Positions 6,979-30,573 of a stretch of 47,412 nt of DNA are shown in pieces. Positions within the stretch are counted from its first letter, which is position 1. The number at the start of each line of letters is the position of its first letter. Made by a program: the position numbers and the translations under genes. This DNA is from Desulfocapsaceae bacterium (GTDB lineage Bacteria; Desulfobacterota; Desulfobulbia; Desulfobulbales; Desulfocapsaceae): positions 1 to 47,412 of the forward strand of contig JAUSAB010000095.1 of the NCBI GenBank assembly GCA_030653035.1. Reading direction: 5' to 3'. The notes beneath the pieces are model-generated. The model had not been told where the DNA came from, did no database searches, and saw only the letters and a program-made list of their open reading frames with translations.

Positions 6979-7980
6979 ATGGATAACTGGTATGTTGCGC
7001 TGAATGGCGTACAACAGGGCCCTTTCAGTCAGGCCCAGATCCAGCAAGGACTGGCAGCAGGAATGTATACCCAAGACACGCTGGTCTGGCGTCAGGGTTT
7101 TGCCAACTGGCTGCCCCTGGCCCAGGCGCCGGCACTGCAACAACCCTCATTCACCCGGCCACCCGTCAATCTTGGTAGCAGACAGGCCGATGAGATCGAT
7201 TACCTGATCCATGGTAATGAGATGCAGTTTGTGGAGATTGAACTTGACCCCCAGGAAAGCGTTGTTGCCGAGGCCGGGGCCATGATGTACATGTCAGACG
7301 GCATCCAGATGGAGACCGTCTTTGGCGATGGCAGTCACAGCTCTGTGAGTGGCGGTTTTATGGACAAGATGCTGGGGGCCGGCAAACGGCTTATTACCGG
7401 CGAGAGTCTCTTCACCACCGTTTTCACCTTTATGGGCCAGGGTAAAGGAAAAGTGGCCTTTGCCGCCCCGTATCCCGGGAAAATCGTTCCACTCAATCTG
7501 AAAAATTACAACGGCAAGCTCATCTGTCAAAAATCCGCCTTTCTCTGTGCCGCCAAAGGTGTGGCCCTGGGGATCGCCTTCCAGAAAAAAATCGGCGTCG
7601 CCCTGTTTGGCGGTGAAGGTTTTATCATGCAGAAGCTGGAAGGCAACGGACTGACCTTTGTCCATGCCGGCGGCACGATCATTGAAAAAGAATTGCAGGC
7701 AGGAGAAACCCTGCGGGTGGACACAGGCTGCCTGGTCGCCCTAACCCAGACCGTGCAGTACGATATCGAGTTTGTTGGCGGCGTCAAATCAGCCCTCTTC
7801 GGCGGCGAAGGGTTCTTCTTTGCCACCCTGCGGGGACCAGGACACGTCTGGCTGCAATCCCTACCCTTCTCGCGCCTGGCTGGCCGTATCCATGAGGCAT
7901 CCCCCCAGAATAACGCCGGTTTCTCCACCAAGGGCGAAGGCTCGGTGCTGGGCGCGCTCGGCAATCTTCTACAGAAATGA
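6979..7980 (+). CDS. GYF-domain/AIM24 family protein
   Basis: A 333-residue protein. Residues 1-45 form a GYF_2-type domain (W4, Y5 and QQGPFS), a small fold that usually binds proline-rich peptides. Residues about 70-305 are an AIM24/TIGR00266 domain: repeated glycine-rich beta strands such as [17 protein letters not shown] and [11 protein letters not shown]. The biochemical role of bacterial AIM24 proteins is not established. The upstream gene encodes a protein with a proline-rich linker, so a GYF contact between the two is conceivable (inference). The ATG at 6979 has AAGGA upstream. Confidence 0.85.
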
Positions 7981-8039: not shown

Positions 8040-8729
8040 TTATTCCTCCTCAATAAAACGACGCATCCCTTCACTGATGGTCAAGGCCGTGGCCAGCCTA
8101 TCCAGCCATGCCCTCTCCTCGGCAGTATCCACGACAACGGCCGACACCGCAAGACTATACATGGTCTGGGCAACACGCGGATCGTTAATCCCGGCTACCA
8201 ACTGCTCAATGGACTTGGGCGCATGCATCTCCGTCAAAACAAAACCTCGCTCTTCCTGACTGAGTCTCTGTCCTTGCAGTCTGGCCAGAATTTTCCCTTC
8301 CTCATCACTGTCCACCCCGCCATCCGCATGGGCCGCCGCGATCATCACCTGGATCAGTCGCAAGGCAAGCTCTTCCTCCTGCACAGAAGATGATTCTTTT
8401 CCTTGCAAAGGATTAACCAGGGTGCCAGGCAGCGGCGGAGGCACAACCGACGCAGCAGCAACAGGCGAAGCGCCATACCCGGGGGATGACGTTGGTGGAG
8501 GCGGCACAAGATGAGGGGAAGGCGGGGTTGCACCCTGCCCGCTCTTCAATATCTCATAGGCACCTACACCAAGGCCAATCGCCGTCATAAGACCCTGCCC
8601 TGACAGCAGCGTTGAAGTCAGAGAACGCATCATCCCGCCGCCATTGTGTTTTTTATGTTTTTTGTATCCACTGCCGGAGCCAACCATTTCTGCCATCATC
8701 TTTCCTAACAACTGTTCCGCATTAAACAT
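8040..8729 (-). CDS. TerB-like DUF533 (YebE-type) protein
   Basis: A 229-residue protein. The N-terminus holds a Gly/His/Lys-rich stretch (18-33) and a hydrophobic segment (about 43-62). A proline-rich linker (69-110) leads to an all-helical domain (about 115-229) of the DUF533/TerB type, recognisable by IAAAHADGGVDSDEEGKIL, an acidic metal-binding-like motif. YebE-type proteins sit in the inner membrane and have no assigned reaction. It converges on the AIM24 gene and has an isolated position. Start at ATG 8727-8729; the upstream GGAGGTGGTG gives a usable ribosome site. Confidence 0.8.
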   Translation of the reverse strand: MFNAEQLLGKMMAEMVGSGSGYKKHKKHNGGGMMRSLTSTLLSGQGLMTAIGLGVGAYEILKSGQGATPPSPHLVPPPPTSSPGYGASPVAAASVVPPPLPGTLVNPLQGKESSSVQEEELALRLIQVMIAAAHADGGVDSDEEGKILARLQGQRLSQEERGFVLTEMHAPKSIEQLVAGINDPRVAQTMYSLAVSAVVVDTAEERAWLDRLATALTISEGMRRFIEEE

Positions 8730-9628: not shown

Positions 9629-11107
9629 ATGCAAGCACCCATTACTATACTTCTTGAAAAGAATGATCTCGAAAAAGCAGACCTGCTCAGCGATTATATC
9701 AAGGACAACAGCGCCTTTCATTGTAAACAATTCAAGACGGAAAAAGAACTTTTTTCCATCCTGAGCACATCTCCAGCTCCACTGCTCATCTACGACCTCA
9801 CCTCTCCAGAGGTTGAAACCAGGCTTGCCATACTCCAAAAAATCCACACAACCTACCCCGACCAGCTGATCATCGCCGTTATCCCTGATGGCGCCGATGA
9901 CCTCGTCGAATCGGTGCTGCAACTGGATCTCTTCTTTTACATCCATAAGCCCTATGATCCGGCCGAGATTCGTATTGCCCTGAAACGCGCCCAATCCAAA
10001 CTTGGCCGCCGCCTCACCTCGATACCAGGCAACGAACAACAGATCTCGACATCCTTCCATGGATTGATCGGTCAAAGTCAGTCCATGCGGCAACTCTTTG
10101 AGCTGATCACCAAGGTTGCCGATGACGAATTCGCAACTGTCCTGATCCGGGGAGAATCAGGGACCGGCAAAGAATTGGTGGCCAAGGCCATTCACACCCA
10201 CAGCAAACGGAGCAACAAAAATTTTGTGCCGGTCAACTGTGCCGCCATCCCTGATGACCTTCTGGAAAGTGAACTGTTCGGATACACCAAAGGCGCCTTT
10301 ACCGGCGCCTCGCAAAACAAGATAGGAAGGATAGAATACGCCGACGGCGGCACCCTCTTTCTCGACGAGATTGGTGACATGAAGCCCTTTCTCCAGGCAA
10401 AACTGCTGCGGGTCTTGCAGGAAAAAGAGTTTGAGCCGGTGGGCGGACTCAAGGCCTGTCCGGTGGACACCCGCATTGTCGCTGCCACCCATTGCAACCT
10501 GGAGCAATTAGTCAGTGAAGGAAAATTTCGGGAAGATTTATACTACCGCCTCAGTGTTATCCCCCTGACCATCCCTCCACTCAAGGAAAGAAGGGAAGAT
10601 ATCCCCCTGCTCCTCGAAGCCTTTATCCACACCTACTCAACCCAGCGTGGGCGCGCGCCTCTTACCTTTGTTCCCCATGCCGTAACGGCCCTGATGAATT
10701 ATGAATGGCGCGGCAATGTGCGGGAACTCGAGAATCTGGTTCAACACATGTCTATTCTTTTCAGTGGCATGAATGTGCGGATAGAGGATCTGCCGGAAAG
10801 ATTCACCATAGGCCTTGATCCTTCTTTTTTTATTGAACTGCCACCAGCGTCGGCAGCACAACAGGAAGAAAGGGCAGAACAAGCTGAAGCTGAAACAATC
10901 ATGACCGCCATGACCGATGTCAGTTGGGAGAGAGGTCAAGTGGACTTCAATGAGCTGATCAACGATTTTGAGAGGCAGCTCATCATCCAGGCGATGAAGA
11001 AGACCAGCGGCAATAAAAAAGAAGCCGCCAGATTGCTCAATTTAAAACGAACAACCTTGCTGGAAAAGATGAAAAAAAAAGAAATACAGGATATCTGGGA
11101 AGAATAA
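9629..11107 (+). CDS. Sigma-54 activator with degenerate receiver (FleQ/FlrC-like)
   Basis: A 492-residue regulator. It has a receiver-like domain (1-125), an AAA+ domain (about 145-385) with Walker A GESGTGKE (175-182), the sigma-54 contact loop GAFTGA (222-227) and Walker B GGTLFLDEI (240-248), and a Fis-type helix-turn-helix at the C-terminus (KKEAARLLNLKRTTLLEKM). The receiver keeps the phosphorylatable-type Asp (D56) and Lys (K107), but the acidic pair that binds Mg is replaced by Lys-Asn (11-12), so control by phosphorylation is doubtful. Position next to chemotaxis and flagellar genes suggests the flagellar master or class III activator. No -24/-12 site could be read upstream of the flagellar operons. 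Confidence 0.85.
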   Translation: MQAPITILLEKNDLEKADLLSDYIKDNSAFHCKQFKTEKELFSILSTSPAPLLIYDLTSPEVETRLAILQKIHTTYPDQLIIAVIPDGADDLVESVLQLDLFFYIHKPYDPAEIRIALKRAQSKLGRRLTSIPGNEQQISTSFHGLIGQSQSMRQLFELITKVADDEFATVLIRGESGTGKELVAKAIHTHSKRSNKNFVPVNCAAIPDDLLESELFGYTKGAFTGASQNKIGRIEYADGGTLFLDEIGDMKPFLQAKLLRVLQEKEFEPVGGLKACPVDTRIVAATHCNLEQLVSEGKFREDLYYRLSVIPLTIPPLKERREDIPLLLEAFIHTYSTQRGRAPLTFVPHAVTALMNYEWRGNVRELENLVQHMSILFSGMNVRIEDLPERFTIGLDPSFFIELPPASAAQQEERAEQAEAETIMTAMTDVSWERGQVDFNELINDFERQLIIQAMKKTSGNKKEAARLLNLKRTTLLEKMKKKEIQDIWEE

Positions 11108-11177
11108 CCCCGATAAACGGGATAAGTACCTTCACGAAATTCGTTTCAAAAAAGAAGAAACGAATTTCTAAGGTACT
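11108..11177. repeat. Hairpin repeat family H, copy 1
   Basis: CCCCGATAAACGGG (11108-11121) is followed by a long stem: AGTACCTT...GAAATTCGTTTC (11125-11147) pairs with GAAACGAATTTC...AAGGTACT (11157-11177). The leading palindrome and the stem-base motif are shared with copies after fliE and after fliI. It separates the convergent sigma-54 activator and CheC-like genes and can act as a terminator for both. Confidence 0.75.
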
Positions 11178-11185
11178 AAAGAGGG

Positions 11186-12928
11186 TTATGCGGCAAGCTT
11201 GACCGAGAGATGTTCAATTTTCTCCCCGATATCATCACGGGTTGCCGGGGTCAGAAGGATATCATTCACACCATATTTCACTGCGGTTATCACCTTGCTG
11301 CGAGTCCATCGCGGACCGGCAGCAATAAGAGGCAACGAACAGGCAGCGTTTATCTTGATGGCCAGCGCAAAGGCCTTTTCGTTCACATCACTCATTACCA
11401 ACAAAACAGCCTTCACTTCACCCGGCAAATAATCAGTTACGTTCTCCTTAAAGGAAAGAACCTTGGCGCTCAAATGACGCCGCTCCAGAACGGCCATGAT
11501 TTTTTCTGTCTCCAGCGCATCATTACTTACCACCAGGACATCAAAGGTCTGAGGCTCTGCACTCTCGGCCTTATCAACAGAGGGTGCCGCTTTTTTCTCT
11601 TCCGGCTGCTGCACAGGCGGTTGTTCTGCTTCCTGTTGTAAAATCCCATCGAGCTGCAACATGACCGCCGGGAAAAGCATCTGCATCTTTCCCATTGTCT
11701 TGCCGCCAATATTGAGCGTACTGCTGCTCATATAATAAAACTGATTCGGCATGGGCGCGTCAGAGTCAGTATCCACTTTCAGTGGTAGCACCTGCTCAAT
11801 ACCCGTCTTCACAAAACGAATTTTTTTGACATACTGCTCTTCAAAGATAGCGGAATAAACCCCGGAGACGATATTGGCAATTTCGCCATAAGCATCTTCG
11901 GTATCATCGCCAAAGGCCTCATCGATCACCACTTTTTCAAGTTCCCCAGCGGGTAGCATGATCAAGGTGCCACCAATATAAATAGCATCCTTCAACCCAA
12001 CAAAGAGATACCCGTTGCCTTGGACCTCACCTACCACATCCATATGGGCAAGAATCTGCTTGCCGGAGGCCTCATCCATAAAATAATCTTCTTTCGAGAC
12101 CAACCGACACTCTTGATCACTCAGCGCCACCTCCACGCCAAGCAGGGCGCCCATCTCAACCCCTATTTTTTGACGACACGATTCCAGCAGGGCGTCTACC
12201 CGTTTGCGATGTTTCTTGACGTCAAAATCAGGTGTTGCATTAACCGGTGGCGCAACAACGGCAGGTTCTGTTTTATCGCTATCTACCGCCTTGCCGGTCA
12301 CAGCATGTTCTTGCTTCGCTGACACCTCAGTTTCCGCAACAACCGTCGGCTCATCTTCTTCCAAACCAAAGGGTGCTGCCGGCAGCAACACGACAAGATC
12401 CCCCAGCTCCCGGCCATTGAGAATCATCCCGGTGACGATCTGATAATAAAGCTGATCAGGCACAGGTTCATCAGAACCGATATCCACCTTCAAGGGAAGA
12501 ATGAGCTCCTGGGTTTTTCTTACAAAACGGCAGTTTTCGGGAGACATCTCCTCAAAAACCTTGGTGTAAGACCCGGCTATAATATTGGCTATCTCGCCAT
12601 AGGAATCTTCCGTATCTTCGTCGTATTTTTCAGCGCTAATCACCTCGTCCAGCATGTTCTCCGGCAGCATAATCAAGGTGCCGCCAAGACGAATGGCATC
12701 TCTCATCTCAAGCAGAAGACAACCTTGACCCTCGACATCACCAGTAATATCAATCTTGACCACGACCTGTTTCCCCGACAACTGCTCAAAAGCGTCTTCC
12801 TTGGAAATAAATTGCCTGCGCAGATCAGAAAGAATAAAAGTCGCACCAATAAGGCCGCCGACCTCATCCTGAATCCGCGTACAGACAGATTCCAGTATCT
12901 TGTCAATTCGTTGTTGCGCTTTTTTCAT
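11186..12928 (-). CDS. Tandem CheC-like domains plus receiver-like C-terminus
   Basis: A 580-residue cytosolic protein with two homologous halves (about 1-190 and 238-430). Each carries the CheC/CheX/FliY phosphatase-type signature DTEDxYGEIANI; the putative catalytic pairs are E112/N115 and E349/N352. An acidic/Pro-rich linker leads to a third domain (about 468-580) with receiver-like folding (FDVLVVSNDALETEKIM, later GVNDILLTPATRDDI) but without a normal acidic pair or phospho-Asp. It is encoded downstream of cheY and two cheX genes, which suggests it acts on CheY-P. No strong ribosome site is seen before the ATG at 12926-12928. I know no named protein with this arrangement. Confidence 0.7.
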   Translation of the reverse strand: MKKAQQRIDKILESVCTRIQDEVGGLIGATFILSDLRRQFISKEDAFEQLSGKQVVVKIDITGDVEGQGCLLLEMRDAIRLGGTLIMLPENMLDEVISAEKYDEDTEDSYGEIANIIAGSYTKVFEEMSPENCRFVRKTQELILPLKVDIGSDEPVPDQLYYQIVTGMILNGRELGDLVVLLPAAPFGLEEDEPTVVAETEVSAKQEHAVTGKAVDSDKTEPAVVAPPVNATPDFDVKKHRKRVDALLESCRQKIGVEMGALLGVEVALSDQECRLVSKEDYFMDEASGKQILAHMDVVGEVQGNGYLFVGLKDAIYIGGTLIMLPAGELEKVVIDEAFGDDTEDAYGEIANIVSGVYSAIFEEQYVKKIRFVKTGIEQVLPLKVDTDSDAPMPNQFYYMSSSTLNIGGKTMGKMQMLFPAVMLQLDGILQQEAEQPPVQQPEEKKAAPSVDKAESAEPQTFDVLVVSNDALETEKIMAVLERRHLSAKVLSFKENVTDYLPGEVKAVLLVMSDVNEKAFALAIKINAACSLPLIAAGPRWTRSKVITAVKYGVNDILLTPATRDDIGEKIEHLSVKLAA

Positions 12929-13028
12929 AATTTATGCTGATACAAGCAAGAGAGAGGAGGTGTAAGGTTCAGCAGGTACTTAGTTCTTATGATATCGGCA
13001 AGAAACCAAAAAAGTTAAATCACCTCCG

Positions 13029-13052
13029 GCAAATCCGGTGGCTTACCATAAA
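13029..13052 (-). terminator. Weak hairpin in cheX/CheC-like gap
   Basis: On the - strand CCACCGG-ATTTG-CCGGAGGTG is a stem with one bulge, followed about 7 bp on by a T-rich run. It lies in the 165-bp gap and may reduce transcription into the CheC-like gene. Confidence 0.35.
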
Positions 13053-13093
13053 AAGGTTAATAAACAGAGAGCAACAGGGCGGTCCGCACATCT

Positions 13094-13555
13094 TTAACTA
13101 TTCACGATATATTTAAGTTCCACCAGAAACGCCCCCTGCTCCATAGTAAAAGGCACCGCCACCCGTCTTGCGCCCACCATCCCGCCGACACGATAAGATT
13201 TACCAATAATTGATGTGGGAATGGCAAGTTCAATCTTCAAATCATATCCGGCAAAGGCCGTCTTCAGATTTCCGGCTATCATATTGGCGATCTCACCAAT
13301 AGCATCTTTCACATCTTCATTCAACTCATCAACGTCCACACCCAGAAAGCCGCCGGTAATCGCCATGGCCACCGCTGCGGGACAATGCACTGCCAGCATT
13401 CCTCGGATATCACCCCCCAGGCCCAGCATGGCGGTGATGTTTGATTCGACCTCTCCCCCGGCCCCATCCACAGGATCTCCAACCACAAGATCCATCATCA
13501 GCATGGTGGAAAAAACATCCGTGGTAGCGCCTATAATATCCTGCCCTATATTCAT
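13094..13555 (-). CDS. cheX: CheX-family CheY-P phosphatase, paralogue B
   Basis: A 153-residue cytosolic protein of the CheX family, which dephosphorylates CheY-P. The catalytic-type motif GEIANMIAGN supplies E88 and N91. The N-terminus (IGATTDVFSTMLMMD) is the typical alpha-1 helix. About half of its residues match the neighbouring paralogue at 13655, pointing to a tandem duplication. It is the third gene of the cheY-cheX-cheX series and is 99 bp downstream of its sister. Start ATG 13555 has GGAAAG directly upstream. Which response regulator each CheX serves cannot be told from sequence. Confidence 0.88.
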   Translation of the reverse strand: MNIGQDIIGATTDVFSTMLMMDLVVGDPVDGAGGEVESNITAMLGLGGDIRGMLAVHCPAAVAMAITGGFLGVDVDELNEDVKDAIGEIANMIAGNLKTAFAGYDLKIELAIPTSIIGKSYRVGGMVGARRVAVPFTMEQGAFLVELKYIVNS

Positions 13556-13654: not shown

Positions 13655-14110
13655 TTACTTTTCAAGCTGCAGTTCGACTAAAAACCTGCCTTGCTCTGTT
13701 TTAAACGGCAAGATAACCAGATCAACATCGGTAGTGGCTTTAAAACCATATTCATGACCGGCAATGGTTGACGGCAGAGAGAGAGCAATATCTCTGCCGT
13801 TCTGCGTCAGAATAGTTTTTACATTGCCACCCAGCATATTGGCAAGCTCTCCCACCGCATCACGAACATCATCATTTATTGCGTCAACATCCATCCCCAG
13901 AAAACTACTGGTAATAGCAATGGCCACATGGTTCGGAATGTGGATCGCCAACACCCCTTTGTGGGTTCCGGCCAGACCAATCATCCCCGTAATCGTATCA
14001 CAAAGGGTACCACTGGCCGTCAATGGTGGCCCATCAACAGAGACATCCATCATCACCATAGTGGTAAAGATTTCTATGGTTGATTCAATAATCTTCTCAC
14101 TGATATCCAT
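13655..14110 (-). CDS. cheX: CheX-family CheY-P phosphatase, paralogue A
   Basis: A 151-residue CheX with the same E88/N91 motif (GELANMLGGN). The N-terminus IIESTIEIFTTMVMMDV is typical of the family. It starts 11 bp after the cheY stop with AAAGGTG as ribosome site, so it is surely in one operon with cheY. That pairing supports the prediction that it removes phosphate from this CheY. CheX normally works as a dimer in the cytosol near the switch or receptor arrays. Confidence 0.9.
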   Translation of the reverse strand: MDISEKIIESTIEIFTTMVMMDVSVDGPPLTASGTLCDTITGMIGLAGTHKGVLAIHIPNHVAIAITSSFLGMDVDAINDDVRDAVGELANMLGGNVKTILTQNGRDIALSLPSTIAGHEYGFKATTDVDLVILPFKTEQGRFLVELQLEK

Positions 14111-14121
14111 AAAGCACCTTT

Positions 14122-14496
14122 TTATTTGAGAAACGGCCCTAGGACCTCATTCACCATATCCGGAGTAAAGGGTTTTTTTATCGCCCCTATCGCCCCCAAA
14201 GATTTTGCTTCACCAATAATATCCTCGCCTGTCTCGGTTGAAATCATAAATACCGGAATATTTTTCATATTGGCACGAGTAGCCTTTTCCCTGAGAAAGG
14301 CAATTCCGTCCATATTGGGCATGTTAATATCACTGAGTACGATATCCACAGATTCCTTTTCGAGCACCTCAAGGGCCTGCAAGCCATCTGCCGCCTCAAA
14401 GATATTATCAAACTCAATGCCCGCCTGACGCAGGGATCTACCCACAATCTTCCGCATCGTGCTTGAATCGTCCACCAATAAAACATTATTTCCCAT
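14122..14496 (-). CDS. cheY: Chemotaxis response regulator CheY
   Basis: A 124-residue single-domain receiver that carries the signal to the flagellar switch (FliM/FliN) when phosphorylated. All key positions are present: acidic pair D9/D10, phospho-acceptor D56 in SDINMP, the hydroxyl residue in MISTET, and Lys in KKPF (108). The frame is open to a TTG at 14508, but GGAGG falls inside that extension, 5 bp before the ATG at 14496. The ATG is therefore the start. First gene of a leftward operon with two cheX genes and the CheC-like gene. No cheA, cheW or receptor gene is in the window. Confidence 0.95.
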   Translation of the reverse strand: MGNNVLLVDDSSTMRKIVGRSLRQAGIEFDNIFEAADGLQALEVLEKESVDIVLSDINMPNMDGIAFLREKATRANMKNIPVFMISTETGEDIIGEAKSLGAIGAIKKPFTPDMVNEVLGPFLK

Positions 14497-14731
14497 CTTA
14501 ACCTCCAATAAATTATTATTATTTCTTACATAAGAAATTCATAAGAAATTCAATTGCTCAATTTTATAATACTATATTTTAGCCAATTATTCTTTTTTTC
14601 GTCAATGCTAATCATAAACAGAAACATAAAAAGTCTCAAGGCAACACCTTTCCCGGTCTTCAATAGTTAAAAAACACAAAAAGGAACGATACTTGCATGA
14701 AAAATGCAAAACTTATCCTCCATACTCTATC
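14497..14731. promoter_or_regulatory. Divergent promoter region, cheY / flagellar locus
   Basis: A very A/T-rich 235-bp gap. It contains the inverted repeat TTTCTTA-CA-TAAGAAA (14522-14537), overlapping an exact tandem 11-bp repeat CATAAGAAATT (14529-14550). This is one helical turn apart, as in many operators. TATAAT at 14565 could be a -10 for the rightward operon, but no good -35 is seen. Confidence 0.5.
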
Positions 14732-14735
14732 ATGA
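14697..14735 (+). CDS. Possible 12-codon leader ORF
   Basis: ATG at 14697 opens a 12-codon frame (MKNAKLILHTLS) whose TGA overlaps the ATG of the TPR gene in the form ATGA. AAGGA at 14681-14685 is the only ribosome site in reach. Translational coupling would explain why the TPR gene itself lacks one. Alternatively the TPR gene starts at TTG 14693, which is spaced 7 bp from the same site. Confidence 0.3.
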   Translation: MKNAKLILHTLS

Positions 14736-17161
14736 AAAAAACACTTCTCATCGTTTTCATAACAACTCTGACGGCTGCCCTGACAGCCATTGCCGGATAT
14801 GCCTCGCCCCCGTCGATTCTCACAAAAATCCACAAGGGCTACAGCGGCAGGAATATGCAACTCTCCTGCTCTTTTAACTCTGTCCCCCAATACACTGTCA
14901 GCAATAAGGAAAAACGCATAGATCTAACACTGAAGAACACTCTTTCTGCCGACGATCTCGTTATTCCCGAGACCGACGACAAAATAGTCAAAATTTTGTC
15001 ACTCGCCCACGATAACGCTACAACTATTTCGATCTTTTTCCGTTATCCGCCGCAAAAGGTAAAAGTTGTTCCCGGAAACAAGGACAACGAATTACTCCTC
15101 AACGTCACTCTGGGGAACGAATTCACGGCCACCCTGCCTACTTTTTCCAGTCAACAGCAAGGCGGCTCAGATTCACAACAAAAGACCAAGGATTCATCCA
15201 ACCCGGCTCAGACATGTCCCTACTCCGGAAACTGGAAGAATTTCTTCAAAGAGTATGAGGCCGATCTCCAGATTGAACCCGCCGTACAGTTTTCCTTTGC
15301 CCCCTTTCCTGCCATCACCCTGCTTCTCCCTGAAAAGAAAAACAATGCTGCGATCCTGCCGGCTGCAATCATTGAAGGTGCCAAACAAAACCTCTGGAAT
15401 GATCTGGCACCGTTGATCATTGAACAGATCAACCAGGAAAAAGATCCTGAAATCAGGAAAAAACTGATCTTAACCTACGGCGACATCCTCTTGCGGGCCG
15501 GCAACTCACAAGAGGCATACAAACAATTCTATCTGCTCTCGACACAATACGCCACCGAACCTATCGGCACCCTGGCAAGATATCTTCTTTTACGCCTGCA
15601 GGCAGAATACACCGACCCCTATCTGGCTGATGTTGAATTAAAAAACCTCGAATTGACATTAGACAAGAAGGATCCTCTCATCCCCTATCTGTTCATAACC
15701 CAAGTCGAAATCGCCTTGGCGACCAAGCAATTTAAACAGATGTGCACCTTGCTGGAAAAAGATGACATCTTTTCTCCTGCCCAAATTGCCCCGACAAAGG
15801 CCTTGCGCCAGGCAGATTGCTGGCGGAACACCGGCGAATTGATCAAGGCCCAGGCCAGCTATCAACTCCTCGATAAATCCGGCGCCCTGGCAGAAAACAG
15901 CACCTCGCTCAATGGCTATTGCAGCGTCCTCTATCGCCACAAACAATTCAAACAAGCATTTGACTGCTATGATCGGCTGGCGAAACAGTCCTCAACCAAC
16001 ACCAAAAACTATCTTGACATGATCAGTTTCCGCAAGGCCATGGCCAAGCTCCACTTCACACCAGAAACCAAGATGCTCAACGATTTTGCCGAGATCGAAT
16101 TAACCTATCCCGACACTGAGGCAGGAATCAGGGCCGCCATCAAAGAGACGGATATCAAATTGTTGACCATGAAAGGCTGGGAAAAAACAGCCCTGGCCCA
16201 CTACCAGACTCTTGCAGAAACAGCACCAATTCTGTCCATCCGAGAAGAGACGGCTTTCAAGGTGGTTCTTGTTTACCAGATACTTGACCAGAAAACCAAG
16301 AGCGTTGAGCTGCTCATGAATTTCATCAAGGAATTCCAGCACGGGGCGCTGCATAACACAGCCCTGGCCCTGCTTATCGAGACGATGCCCAACCTCCTGA
16401 AGGAACACATTAAAAACGGTAAGTACATTGAGGCCCTGGTCCTGGCCAAACAAAGCAAATTTCTTTTTGTTAAAAACTGGATCAACATCAGCCTGCTAGC
16501 CGACATGGCCGAGGCATACAGTCAGCTTGGTTTTTTCAATGAGGCAACGAAAACATACCTCTATCTTCTGGATATCAGCACCAAGGAAAACAGAGGACCC
16601 TATTACCTCCCTTTAATCAAACTCGCCTACGAACAGGGAGACTCAGAGACGGTTGAGGGATATGCAGACCAATACGCGGCCGCGTATCCAGCAGGCCCGG
16701 ACCTGGAAGAGATCCTCTATATACGCCTGCAAAACCTCATGAGCCACAACCAATACAAAGAGGCCCTTGCCCTGTTATCCGGCAAGACATTCAAAGACCC
16801 CAGGTTTAAAGGTATTCAAGCATCTCTTTCTTTTCATCTCAATGACTATGCCAAGGCAAAGACCATTCTTGAAGAGCTGAAAATCACGCCGGACACCAAA
16901 CAAACCGACGCCCTTTTCATGCTGGCGGAGAGCGTCTATCAACTAGGTGACCGCAAGCGGGCAGAGGAACTCTTTACCCCTTTGCAACAAAATACCGCCC
17001 ACAAGGATCAGGCGCTGTTCAGACTGGCGGAAATTGCCCGGCAAAATGGCCAAAAAGAAAGCGCGCTAAAACTTTTCACCCAGATTGTCGAAAAAGGAAA
17101 AGACCCTTTGTGGAAAAGATTGGCCAAAAAAGAACTGGAGCTTACCGCGTTAAGCAAATGA
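14732..17161 (+). CDS. Secreted TPR-repeat protein upstream of flgB
   Basis: An 809-residue protein with a signal peptide (MKKTLLIVFITT..., cleavage probably after GYAS). A beta-rich N-terminal domain (about 35-130) looks like the AMIN-type domains of periplasmic envelope proteins. It is followed by a long array of helical tetratricopeptide-like repeats (about 215-805), for example SLSFHLNDYAKAKTILEELK. It should be a periplasmic scaffold. It is the first gene before flgB with a 45-bp gap, so a role in basal-body or envelope assembly is plausible but not proved. The start is uncertain: ATG 14732 is chosen because it gives a standard signal peptide; TTG 14693 would add 13 residues. Confidence 0.75.
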   Translation: MKKTLLIVFITTLTAALTAIAGYASPPSILTKIHKGYSGRNMQLSCSFNSVPQYTVSNKEKRIDLTLKNTLSADDLVIPETDDKIVKILSLAHDNATTISIFFRYPPQKVKVVPGNKDNELLLNVTLGNEFTATLPTFSSQQQGGSDSQQKTKDSSNPAQTCPYSGNWKNFFKEYEADLQIEPAVQFSFAPFPAITLLLPEKKNNAAILPAAIIEGAKQNLWNDLAPLIIEQINQEKDPEIRKKLILTYGDILLRAGNSQEAYKQFYLLSTQYATEPIGTLARYLLLRLQAEYTDPYLADVELKNLELTLDKKDPLIPYLFITQVEIALATKQFKQMCTLLEKDDIFSPAQIAPTKALRQADCWRNTGELIKAQASYQLLDKSGALAENSTSLNGYCSVLYRHKQFKQAFDCYDRLAKQSSTNTKNYLDMISFRKAMAKLHFTPETKMLNDFAEIELTYPDTEAGIRAAIKETDIKLLTMKGWEKTALAHYQTLAETAPILSIREETAFKVVLVYQILDQKTKSVELLMNFIKEFQHGALHNTALALLIETMPNLLKEHIKNGKYIEALVLAKQSKFLFVKNWINISLLADMAEAYSQLGFFNEATKTYLYLLDISTKENRGPYYLPLIKLAYEQGDSETVEGYADQYAAAYPAGPDLEEILYIRLQNLMSHNQYKEALALLSGKTFKDPRFKGIQASLSFHLNDYAKAKTILEELKITPDTKQTDALFMLAESVYQLGDRKRAEELFTPLQQNTAHKDQALFRLAEIARQNGQKESALKLFTQIVEKGKDPLWKRLAKKELELTALSK

Positions 17162-29589: not shown

Positions 29590-30573
29590 GTGGAACCAAT
29601 TCTTTCCAGACAAGAAATTGCAGATCTCCTGAGCGCCATTAAGAAAGGCCAGGTCACCACCGAAGCGGCGATGCCGGAGCAATCCGCCAAATTCACCAAT
29701 GCCGAATCAGTCAATCTCCTGCAGATGGCAAACAAAAACAGTTGCCAACTGCGAATCCCCAATTTTGATATCATTCTCGACACCTTTGCCCAAAACTATT
29801 CTATATCCCTCACCAACCAGCTCCAGCGAACCTTTACCATCAGTCGCATCGGCATAGAATGCTCACTTTTTAACACATTCATGACCGCCCAAAAAAACTC
29901 CGGGGCCATTGGCGTTCTCAATCTTGACCCCTTAAAATATGGAGCTCTGTTCATTCTGGATCAACAGCTTTCTTTCACTCTCATTGAGATCATGCTGGGC
30001 GCATCCAGTGAGTTGGACCCTCTGAAGCTGGATCGAAAACCGACAACCATTGAGCTCAATATCCTCAAATCAGTCATGACCAAGGCCTGCGAGGACCTGA
30101 GCAAGGCCATGAAACCGCTGACAACCCTCAATTCCTCACTCATCAAGGTCGAGAGCAACTCCAGACTGGTCTCTATCACCGATCCCGATGCCGAGGTTGT
30201 TGTTGGTCGTTTTAAGATCCAGATCGGCAGCCTTTCCGGAGAATTAAACATGCTTTTCCCGGTAGCCACCCTTGAGCCCCTTAAAGAACGGCTCAGAGAT
30301 CTGCTCTCCGTCAGGACCAGCAATTTTGGAGAATGGTCTGAACGTATACTCGATGAGATCCTGGCAATGGAAACCTCAATCATTGCCCAATCAGGGACCC
30401 TCACCCTGCCCCTGAGCAAGGTGCTCTCTTTAAAAAAAGGTGACATTATCCCACTTGATTACGACCCCAATTCTCCACTAAAGGTACTCGTTGAGGACAA
30501 CCTGAAATTTTTTGCAAGACCTGGTCTCTACGCCGGGAAACGAGCGATCAGCCTGACCGGCGCCTACGAATAA
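29590..30573 (+). CDS. fliM: Motor switch protein FliM
   Basis: 327 residues, GTG start. FliM forms the C ring and is the docking site of CheY-P. The N-terminal EPILSRQEIADLLSAI is the conserved region that binds CheY, and LRIPNFDIILDTFAQNYSISLTNQLQRTFTI begins the middle CheC-like domain. The C-terminal SpoA domain carries the pattern LPLSKVLSLKKGDIIPLDYDPN. The usual LSQDEID motif is replaced by LSRQEIA, a modest change. Confidence 0.96.
   Translation: MEPILSRQEIADLLSAIKKGQVTTEAAMPEQSAKFTNAESVNLLQMANKNSCQLRIPNFDIILDTFAQNYSISLTNQLQRTFTISRIGIECSLFNTFMTAQKNSGAIGVLNLDPLKYGALFILDQQLSFTLIEIMLGASSELDPLKLDRKPTTIELNILKSVMTKACEDLSKAMKPLTTLNSSLIKVESNSRLVSITDPDAEVVVGRFKIQIGSLSGELNMLFPVATLEPLKERLRDLLSVRTSNFGEWSERILDEILAMETSIIAQSGTLTLPLSKVLSLKKGDIIPLDYDPNSPLKVLVEDNLKFFARPGLYAGKRAISLTGAYE

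Follow-up and report, generated by a model that had tools for sequence, protein, structure and literature searches.

A protein with repeated CheC/FliY-type units and a pseudo-receiver tail, encoded in a chemotaxis operon of a Desulfocapsaceae bacterium

CheC, CheX, FliY, the middle domain of FliM and the pseudo-receivers are the described systems closest to the protein analysed here. CheC has two E-x-x-N sites within one domain, FliY sits at the motor by being part of the C-ring, and FliM is not known to have a catalytic E-xx-N. In CheY, β4, α4 and β5 lie at or beside the FliM-binding face, α5 is part of the same face, and receivers make contacts through their β4/α4/β5 side. According to excerpts from PMC3035606, an acidic residue of the CheC/CheX/FliY phosphatases contacts the Lys of the receiver in a salt bridge, and an Asn orients the water onto the phospho-Asp. 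Excerpts from PMC8235581 state that CheX works as a homodimer and that two Desulfuromonas strains have three cheX genes each, with a cheX-bearing cluster upstream of flagellar genes. A 2025 perspective describes the switching of bacterial pseudo-receivers as a mystery (excerpts from PMC12632262).

We analysed a window of 47,412 nucleotides, the whole stretch of DNA presented here, in which a gene on the minus strand (11186-12928) encodes, from an ATG start, a protein of 580 aa with two CheC/FliY-type units and a pseudo-receiver tail; all features of this gene given below are on the minus strand. Unit 1 (residues 3-190, 12359-12922; alignment A2) and unit 2 (residues 239-427, 11648-12214; structure model) matched the family profile with 275 and 288 bits, respectively. 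The units are ~188 aa each and share 43% identity. Their sites, D108-S-Y-G-E112-I-A-N115 (12584-12607) and D345-A-Y-G-E349-I-A-N352 (11873-11896), follow the pattern D-xxx-E-xx-N with the pairs E112/N115 and E349/N352, and E-x-A-N is present exactly twice in the protein (at E112 and E349), that is, one site per unit. Judged by composition, the linker between the units (12215-12358) is V/A/E/P-rich and the linker before the tail (11546-11647) is Q/E/A/P-rich. The tail itself (residues 462-580, 11189-11545) was delimited with receiver profiles and alignments, and W541-T542-R543 (11300-11308) stands at the start of its α4, the W and the T being invariant in 88/88 tails. The ORF as listed has no N-terminal extension before unit 1; because unit 1 begins at residue 3, this ORF contains no FliY-like N-terminal FliM-like CheY-binding peptide. 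The full-length model was poor (pLDDT 50.8; alignment A3, 11 rows).

Upstream of the gene, and likewise on the minus strand, are two cheX genes (13094-13555 and 13655-14110; PF13690, 83.6 and 81.8 bits, respectively) and a cheY whose active site is intact in the alignment (14122-14508; PF00072, 87 bits), which is the operon that the earlier note had claimed. The NCBIfam CheY model gave this cheY 88.7 bits, below that model's cut-off of 189, and the gene is listed with a TTG start, an ATG lying four codons further in. The operon CheX and the unit share the motif helix (hhalign 94%) over 30 columns only. The gap between the multi-unit gene and the nearer cheX is 165 bases long (12929-13093), and its folded part (12935-13080) did not exceed shuffled sequences in stability (z -0.26). 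From the plus strand, a sigma-54 activator gene (9629-11107), identified by a Pfam-type match and by synteny, converges on the multi-unit gene; the N-terminus of the activator matches receivers weakly. A strong hairpin lies between the convergent 3' ends (11125-11177; -32 kcal/mol and z -6.9 for the stretch 11105-11185). The usual layout in the order consists of a nuclease gene and the sigma-54 activator converging on the multi-unit gene, followed by cheX, cheX and cheY, and beyond cheY, divergently, by a TPR protein, flgB and flgC. The two families outside the order that we denote f39 and f115 have cheY, cheX, the multi-unit gene, TPR, flgB and flgC in one direction. In the window, the TPR protein (14693-17161) is large, has an apparent signal peptide by eye and is located between the che operon and flgB; it is kept next to flgB in many loci, those of f39/f115 included. 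Two further ORFs, at 6979-7980 and 8040-8729, resemble GYF/AIM24-type and TerB-like proteins by eye.

We compared the units with known families and folds. The Pfam CheX model PF13690 matched two stretches of the protein (37.2 bits for the whole protein; cut-off 27), and the CheC model PF04509 gave 20.2 bits, below its cut-off of 22. At E values up to 1, the protein had no match to the FliN-type C-terminal domain (FliMN_C, PF01052), and CheZ (PF04344) was absent among its matches. In the PDB, the unit profile gave weak matches (E 0.014-0.39) to CheX, to CheC and to a FliY entry that its depositors labelled a CheC/FliN fusion, and it matched nothing in the window's own single FliM sequence (0.8%). 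An AlphaFold2 model of unit 2 (residues 237-430; 22-row alignment) reached a pLDDT of 83.9 and a pTM of 0.82, with the E-x-x-N motif on a helix. In a Foldseek search with this model, entries of CheX, CheC, FliY and FliM or C-ring complexes filled the top 33 rows; all rows beyond them had E values of 0.04 or worse. The VIA-align Z scores were 19.2 for the FliM middle domain, 17.1 for FliY, 16.0 for CheC and 12.2 for CheX, and the first unrelated row scored 4.7. Profile and predicted fold thus support the assignment of the unit to the CheC/CheX/FliY superfamily, and from the model the unit is best described as the large fold of FliM-middle/FliY/CheC size with one catalytic site, not the smaller CheX fold. 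The earlier note had described two CheC-like domains with an E-xx-N pair each. Both pairs are present, the repeats fall in the CheC/CheX/FliY superfamily and not in an unrelated family, and the model of unit 2 has a CheC/FliM-type fold; one active site per unit sets the units apart from the two-site CheC. As the units are often paired, an intramolecular CheX-like dimer of both units was considered; it is not supported, as one- and three-unit members exist; the fold of unit 2, nearer to full-size CheC/FliM than to CheX, also speaks against such a pairing.

The family is present in 73/193 genomes of the order, which shows that the architecture did not arise by chance in the window alone. A 74th candidate carrier, G115, was dropped: its match scored 20 bits, and the search for a tail in it was negative. 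Outside the order, a clear tail (at least 69 bits, the next best match having 44 bits) was found in 13 genomes of five families, with 395 genomes sampled from the phylum; weak matches (at most 44 bits) in 91 further phylum genomes were dropped as presumed ordinary response regulators, three of these loci having been inspected. A second collection gave ten records of named relatives, labelled Desulfobulbaceae, Desulfocapsaceae or Desulfocapsa. Within the order, 14 genomes have three units, 49 have two and 4 have one; three others have the tail with a unit remnant (G112, by eye) or without a unit (G155 and G173), and the remaining carriers are G036, in which unknown bases split unit and tail, and G166 and G186, which are cut by contig ends. 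The phylum members have two units in families f112, f74 and f95 (one in G558) and one unit in f39 and f115.

A tree of 162 units, with the root placed by hand on f39/f115 and with weakly supported deeper branches, contained a unit 1 clade and a last-unit clade for families f1 and f12 (support 0.991 and 0.951, respectively). These separate clades indicate that the duplication predates the f1-f12 split. Among the middle units of the three-unit proteins, 4 group with unit 1 and 10 with the last unit. The units of f95, f112 and f74 pair inside their own family (support 0.982, 0.793 and 0.995, respectively), a pattern suggestive of additional, independent duplications or of sequence conversion. None of these clades includes the four units of G145 and G190. 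The ancestral form, as read from these sequences, was probably one unit plus the pseudo-receiver.

The acidic residue and the Asn of the site are intact in 153/153 units outside the CheW-less genomes. These comprise 137/137 units of the 63/63 CheW-positive order genomes with units and 16/16 units from 11 of the 13 carriers found elsewhere in the phylum; the CheW search covered the genomes of the order. The count leaves out G186 (84% complete, gene cut by the contig end, motif intact), a second copy of the gene at a contig end in G177, and the phylum members G487 and G387, whose units show both residues by eye; G166, whose first unit is cut, was counted with one unit.

With regard to the tail, Pfam gave no match for it in the single protein sequence. 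A profile of 23 tails matched CheY homologues in the PDB with a best E value of 1.5e-7 and PleD with 6e-6. With hhalign, a profile of 88 tails aligned end-to-end with a set of 118 ordinary receivers taken from the examined loci (98%, E 2.7e-13), and the f39/f115 tails alone aligned with them better still (99%, E 1.7e-17). The receiver homology of the tail rests on these profiles, the fold search having been confined to the unit 2 model, and they confirm the degenerate receiver-like domain proposed earlier. In every alignment looked at, the position of the receiver Lys falls on T560 of the window protein and that of the receiver Thr on G538; across the family these positions are Thr in 75/88 tails and Gly in 72/88, respectively; the acidic pair is replaced by S468-N469 in the window tail. 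By eye, the f39/f115 tails retain the Lys ahead of the Pro. The alignments disagree on the phospho-Asp column: hhalign with the 118 receivers gave V511 (Val 66, Ile 12 and Gly 5 of 88 in the family), hmmsearch with CheY gave M512 (Met in 73/88 tails), and hhalign with 14 CheYs as well as hmmalign of the window gave D514 (Glu 43 and Asp 24 of 88). The phospho-Asp position is most likely Val511 or Met512, and the tail is probably, not certainly, aspartate-less. Residue 514 (11387-11389) is acidic and would be a built-in acidic mimic if it stood at the phospho-Asp column. As Lys and Thr are gone, phosphorylation of the tail is unlikely under any alignment, so that the label "pseudo-receiver" is safe.

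Seven positions (P533, W541, T542, A549, G553, I557 and P561) are invariant in 88/88 tails. By secondary-structure elements, which were taken from the low-confidence full-length model, β4, α4 and β5 are among the most conserved (mean entropy 0.83, 0.74 and 1.08 bits, respectively), and α1 and α5 are variable (2.52 and 2.02 bits).

Nine flagellated genomes (G022, G066, G112, G145, G155, G173, G174, G190 and G192) that have lost chemotaxis genes served as a natural experiment. Their best matches to the operon cheY did not exceed 62 bits or 42% identity, whereas the four control genomes gave 209-263 bits with 80-99% identity, and no cheX above the cut-off was found in any of the nine. CheW is missing in 8/9; the exception, G155, has CheW-family matches but lacks cheX, the operon cheY and the unit. 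In 3/9 genomes (G112, G155 and G173), all that is left of the unit is a remnant, or the unit has disappeared. The six CheW-less flagellated genomes that keep units have lost the catalytic Asn in 8/9 units; the sole unit of G192 keeps both E and N but has lost P89 and G119. We tallied losses over nine columns that are at least 97% conserved in the other 153 units. Among the 9 units, N115 was lost in 8, G119, one turn on, in 7, P89 in 4 and D108 in 2; E112, L85 and E22 were lost in 1 each, and P183 and A78 in 0. The loss is thus concentrated in these sequences on the active-site helix rather than spread across the fold.

The tail is retained in all nine genomes, and the sigma-54 activator still adjoins it in all nine. 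For six genome pairs with a CheW-less member, identity is lower by 0.17-0.25 in the last unit than in the tail, compared with unit-tail identity differences of -0.10 to +0.13 in 17 chemotactic pairs, all of these pairs being picked by hand and overlapping. Between G066 and G174, the identity is 0.62 for the unit (dN/dS 0.22) and 0.87 for the tail (dN/dS 0.07). In these comparisons the relaxation affects the unit, not the tail. The nine genomes represent five genera only (g7, g9, g12, g24 and g60), and the counts are not independent. Unit decay with tail retention after the loss of chemotaxis suggests that the protein has two separable jobs. The earlier note had proposed that the fusion holds CheY-P through its own pseudo-receiver. 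This proposal is not supported: retention of the tail in nine genomes without the operon CheY points to another function of the tail there, and docking of a unit on its own tail in the known substrate mode is unlikely because the tail mostly lacks the receiver Lys of the salt bridge, having Thr in 75/88 cases. The "switchable scaffold" proposed alongside is a possible role of the fusion.

The multi-unit protein follows the flagellum: it occurs in 73/74 FliM-positive genomes of f1, f4 and f12 and in 0/7 f1 genomes without FliM. Homologues of the sigma-54 activator with at least 61% identity (at least 400 bits) were found in 12/12 flagellated genomes tested from f1, f4, f12, f95 and f112; in the 13 FliM-less f1/f12 genomes tested, no match exceeded 285 bits. 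The best match in three f39/f115 genomes tested had 302-354 bits, and within the 16-kb stretches of the f39/f115 loci no activator was found beside the multi-unit gene. The f4 genome G003 is flagellated and has a close activator homologue; the tail was looked for there and not found. The f39/f115 loci and G003 weaken the idea that the activator is the universal partner of the tail. In many f1 loci the activator is ~490 aa long with an N-terminal receiver-like part; in f12 loci and some f1 loci it begins at the AAA+ domain and has 351-378 aa. CheZ exceeded the cut-off in 60/193 order genomes and in 0/73 carriers of the multi-unit protein (the match in G160, 21 bits, is below the cut-off); this exclusion follows clades, and inheritance alone may account for it. 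The FliM of the window is encoded at 29590-30573, and with PF02154 the FliM of the carrier families (E ~1e-17 to 1e-38, and one fragment) scores lower than that of most remaining families in the order (E ~1e-51 to 1e-58, fragments aside).

Because E and N are kept while chemotaxis lasts and the Asn decays once it is lost, CheY-P hydrolysis is the best reading of the units, and we infer it strongly from the sequences. We propose that the protein is a multi-site CheY-P phosphatase of the flagellar system that docks through its tail, and assign this reading a probability of roughly 0.6. As in CheC/CheX/FliY, E112 and E349 would be the acidic residues that contact the Lys of CheY-P, with N115 and N352 orienting the attacking water toward the phospho-Asp; units joined by linkers would provide one to three such sites per molecule. 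Constant docking is the likeliest role of the tail judging from its conservation pattern: a pseudo-receiver without phosphorylation residues would keep the protein permanently docked by way of the conserved β4/α4/β5 region. The docked partner would be linked to the flagellum, either the switch or the neighbouring sigma-54 activator, and the FliM N-terminus and the flagellum-linked sigma-54 activator are accordingly our candidates. A broader version, a two-output flagellar hub, is put forward tentatively and at less than even odds: the units, after repeated multiplication to between one and three, would reset CheY-P, and the tail would independently serve the flagellar switch, assembly or sigma-54 transcription and survive the loss of chemotaxis alone, as a flagellar gene.

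The phosphatase reading has a sub-case in which the pseudo-receiver, as a mimic of active CheY, would attach to the FliM N-terminal peptide and so bring the phosphatase to the motor, where FliY is present as part of the C-ring. The conservation of β4, α4 and β5 in the tail fits this sub-case, as does the peptide EIADLL, with which the window FliM starts and which is kept in FliM of G112 and G173, which have lost the operon CheY and CheW and are the two genomes among the nine that were looked at for the peptide. However, the α5 of the tail is variable, and the kept peptide proves nothing, since FlhG also binds the FliM N-terminus (excerpts from PMC12826062); we consider the sub-case possible but doubtful. 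That the tail is a passive remnant without a role, retained by accident or because its 3' end overlaps the convergent gene, is very improbable: the genes are convergent and their ORFs do overlap in some loci (e.g. L061 and L059), but seven positions are invariant in 88/88 tails, the dN/dS of the tail is 0.07 against 0.22 for the adjacent unit in G066/G174, and tail-only genes exist in G155 and G173.

The units might instead bind CheY-P and hydrolyse it slowly or never, the protein being a sink or sensor of CheY-P whose pseudo-receiver relays to flagellar transcription, through the convergent sigma-54 activator, or to assembly. Such a relay would suit the adjacency of tail and activator in 9/9 genomes without the operon CheY, and the activators of f12, which start at the AAA+ part (351-378 aa, against ~490 aa in many f1 loci), make a partner in trans sensible; moreover, the operon already holds two CheX proteins. 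A mere binder, however, need not keep the catalytic Asn, which is kept in 153/153 units outside the CheW-less genomes, and the relay to the activator is further opposed by the 16-kb stretches of the f39/f115 loci, in which no activator was found, and by G003, in which a close activator homologue is present and the tail was not found. We regard the sink or sensor as unlikely and retain the CheY-P phosphatase with a docking tail as the main reading.

The same gene occurs with and without units and with and without chemotaxis genes, which makes the role of the tail testable alone. Unit number is a trait that changed several times in evolution. The protein draws attention to the set of CheY-P phosphatases in those flagellated sulfur bacteria for which the CheZ search was negative; if the hub reading were true, a chemotaxis phosphatase would be physically part of flagellar control and would replace CheZ in this lineage. 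In the open-access papers searched, we found no description of CheC/CheX repeats joined to a pseudo-receiver, and the claim that the architecture is undescribed extends to these papers only. The protein is a new architecture inside the known CheC/CheX/FliY superfamily.

Compared with the known systems, the highest structural similarity of the unit is to the FliM middle domain (Z 19.2), from which the multi-unit protein differs in having the catalytic E-xx-N and no C-terminal FliN-type domain. CheX (1squ, 3hm4 and 3hzh) shares the motif helix and the Pfam CheX match over the cut-off, but it has 150-159 residues against ~188 aa in the unit and a lower Z (12.2). With CheC of Thermotoga maritima (1xkr) the unit shares the fold (Z 16.0) and an E-x-x-N helix aligned weakly by profile (E 0.014); unlike CheC, it has one site per unit, and its Pfam CheC score is under the cut-off. 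The tail shares with other pseudo-receivers, including the aspartate-less receivers (ALR), receiver homology without the active-site Lys and Thr (definitions as in excerpts from PMC12632262), and is distinguished from them by its place C-terminal to phosphatase units and by the signature W-T-R...A-x-K-Y-G..D-I-L-x-T-P-A. FliY of Thermotoga maritima (4hyn) has in common with the multi-unit protein the whole-length unit fold (Z 17.1, 177 residues aligned) and the flagellar linkage, whereas the multi-unit protein has one E-xx-N site per unit, repeated units, and a pseudo-receiver replacing the C-terminal FliN-type domain.
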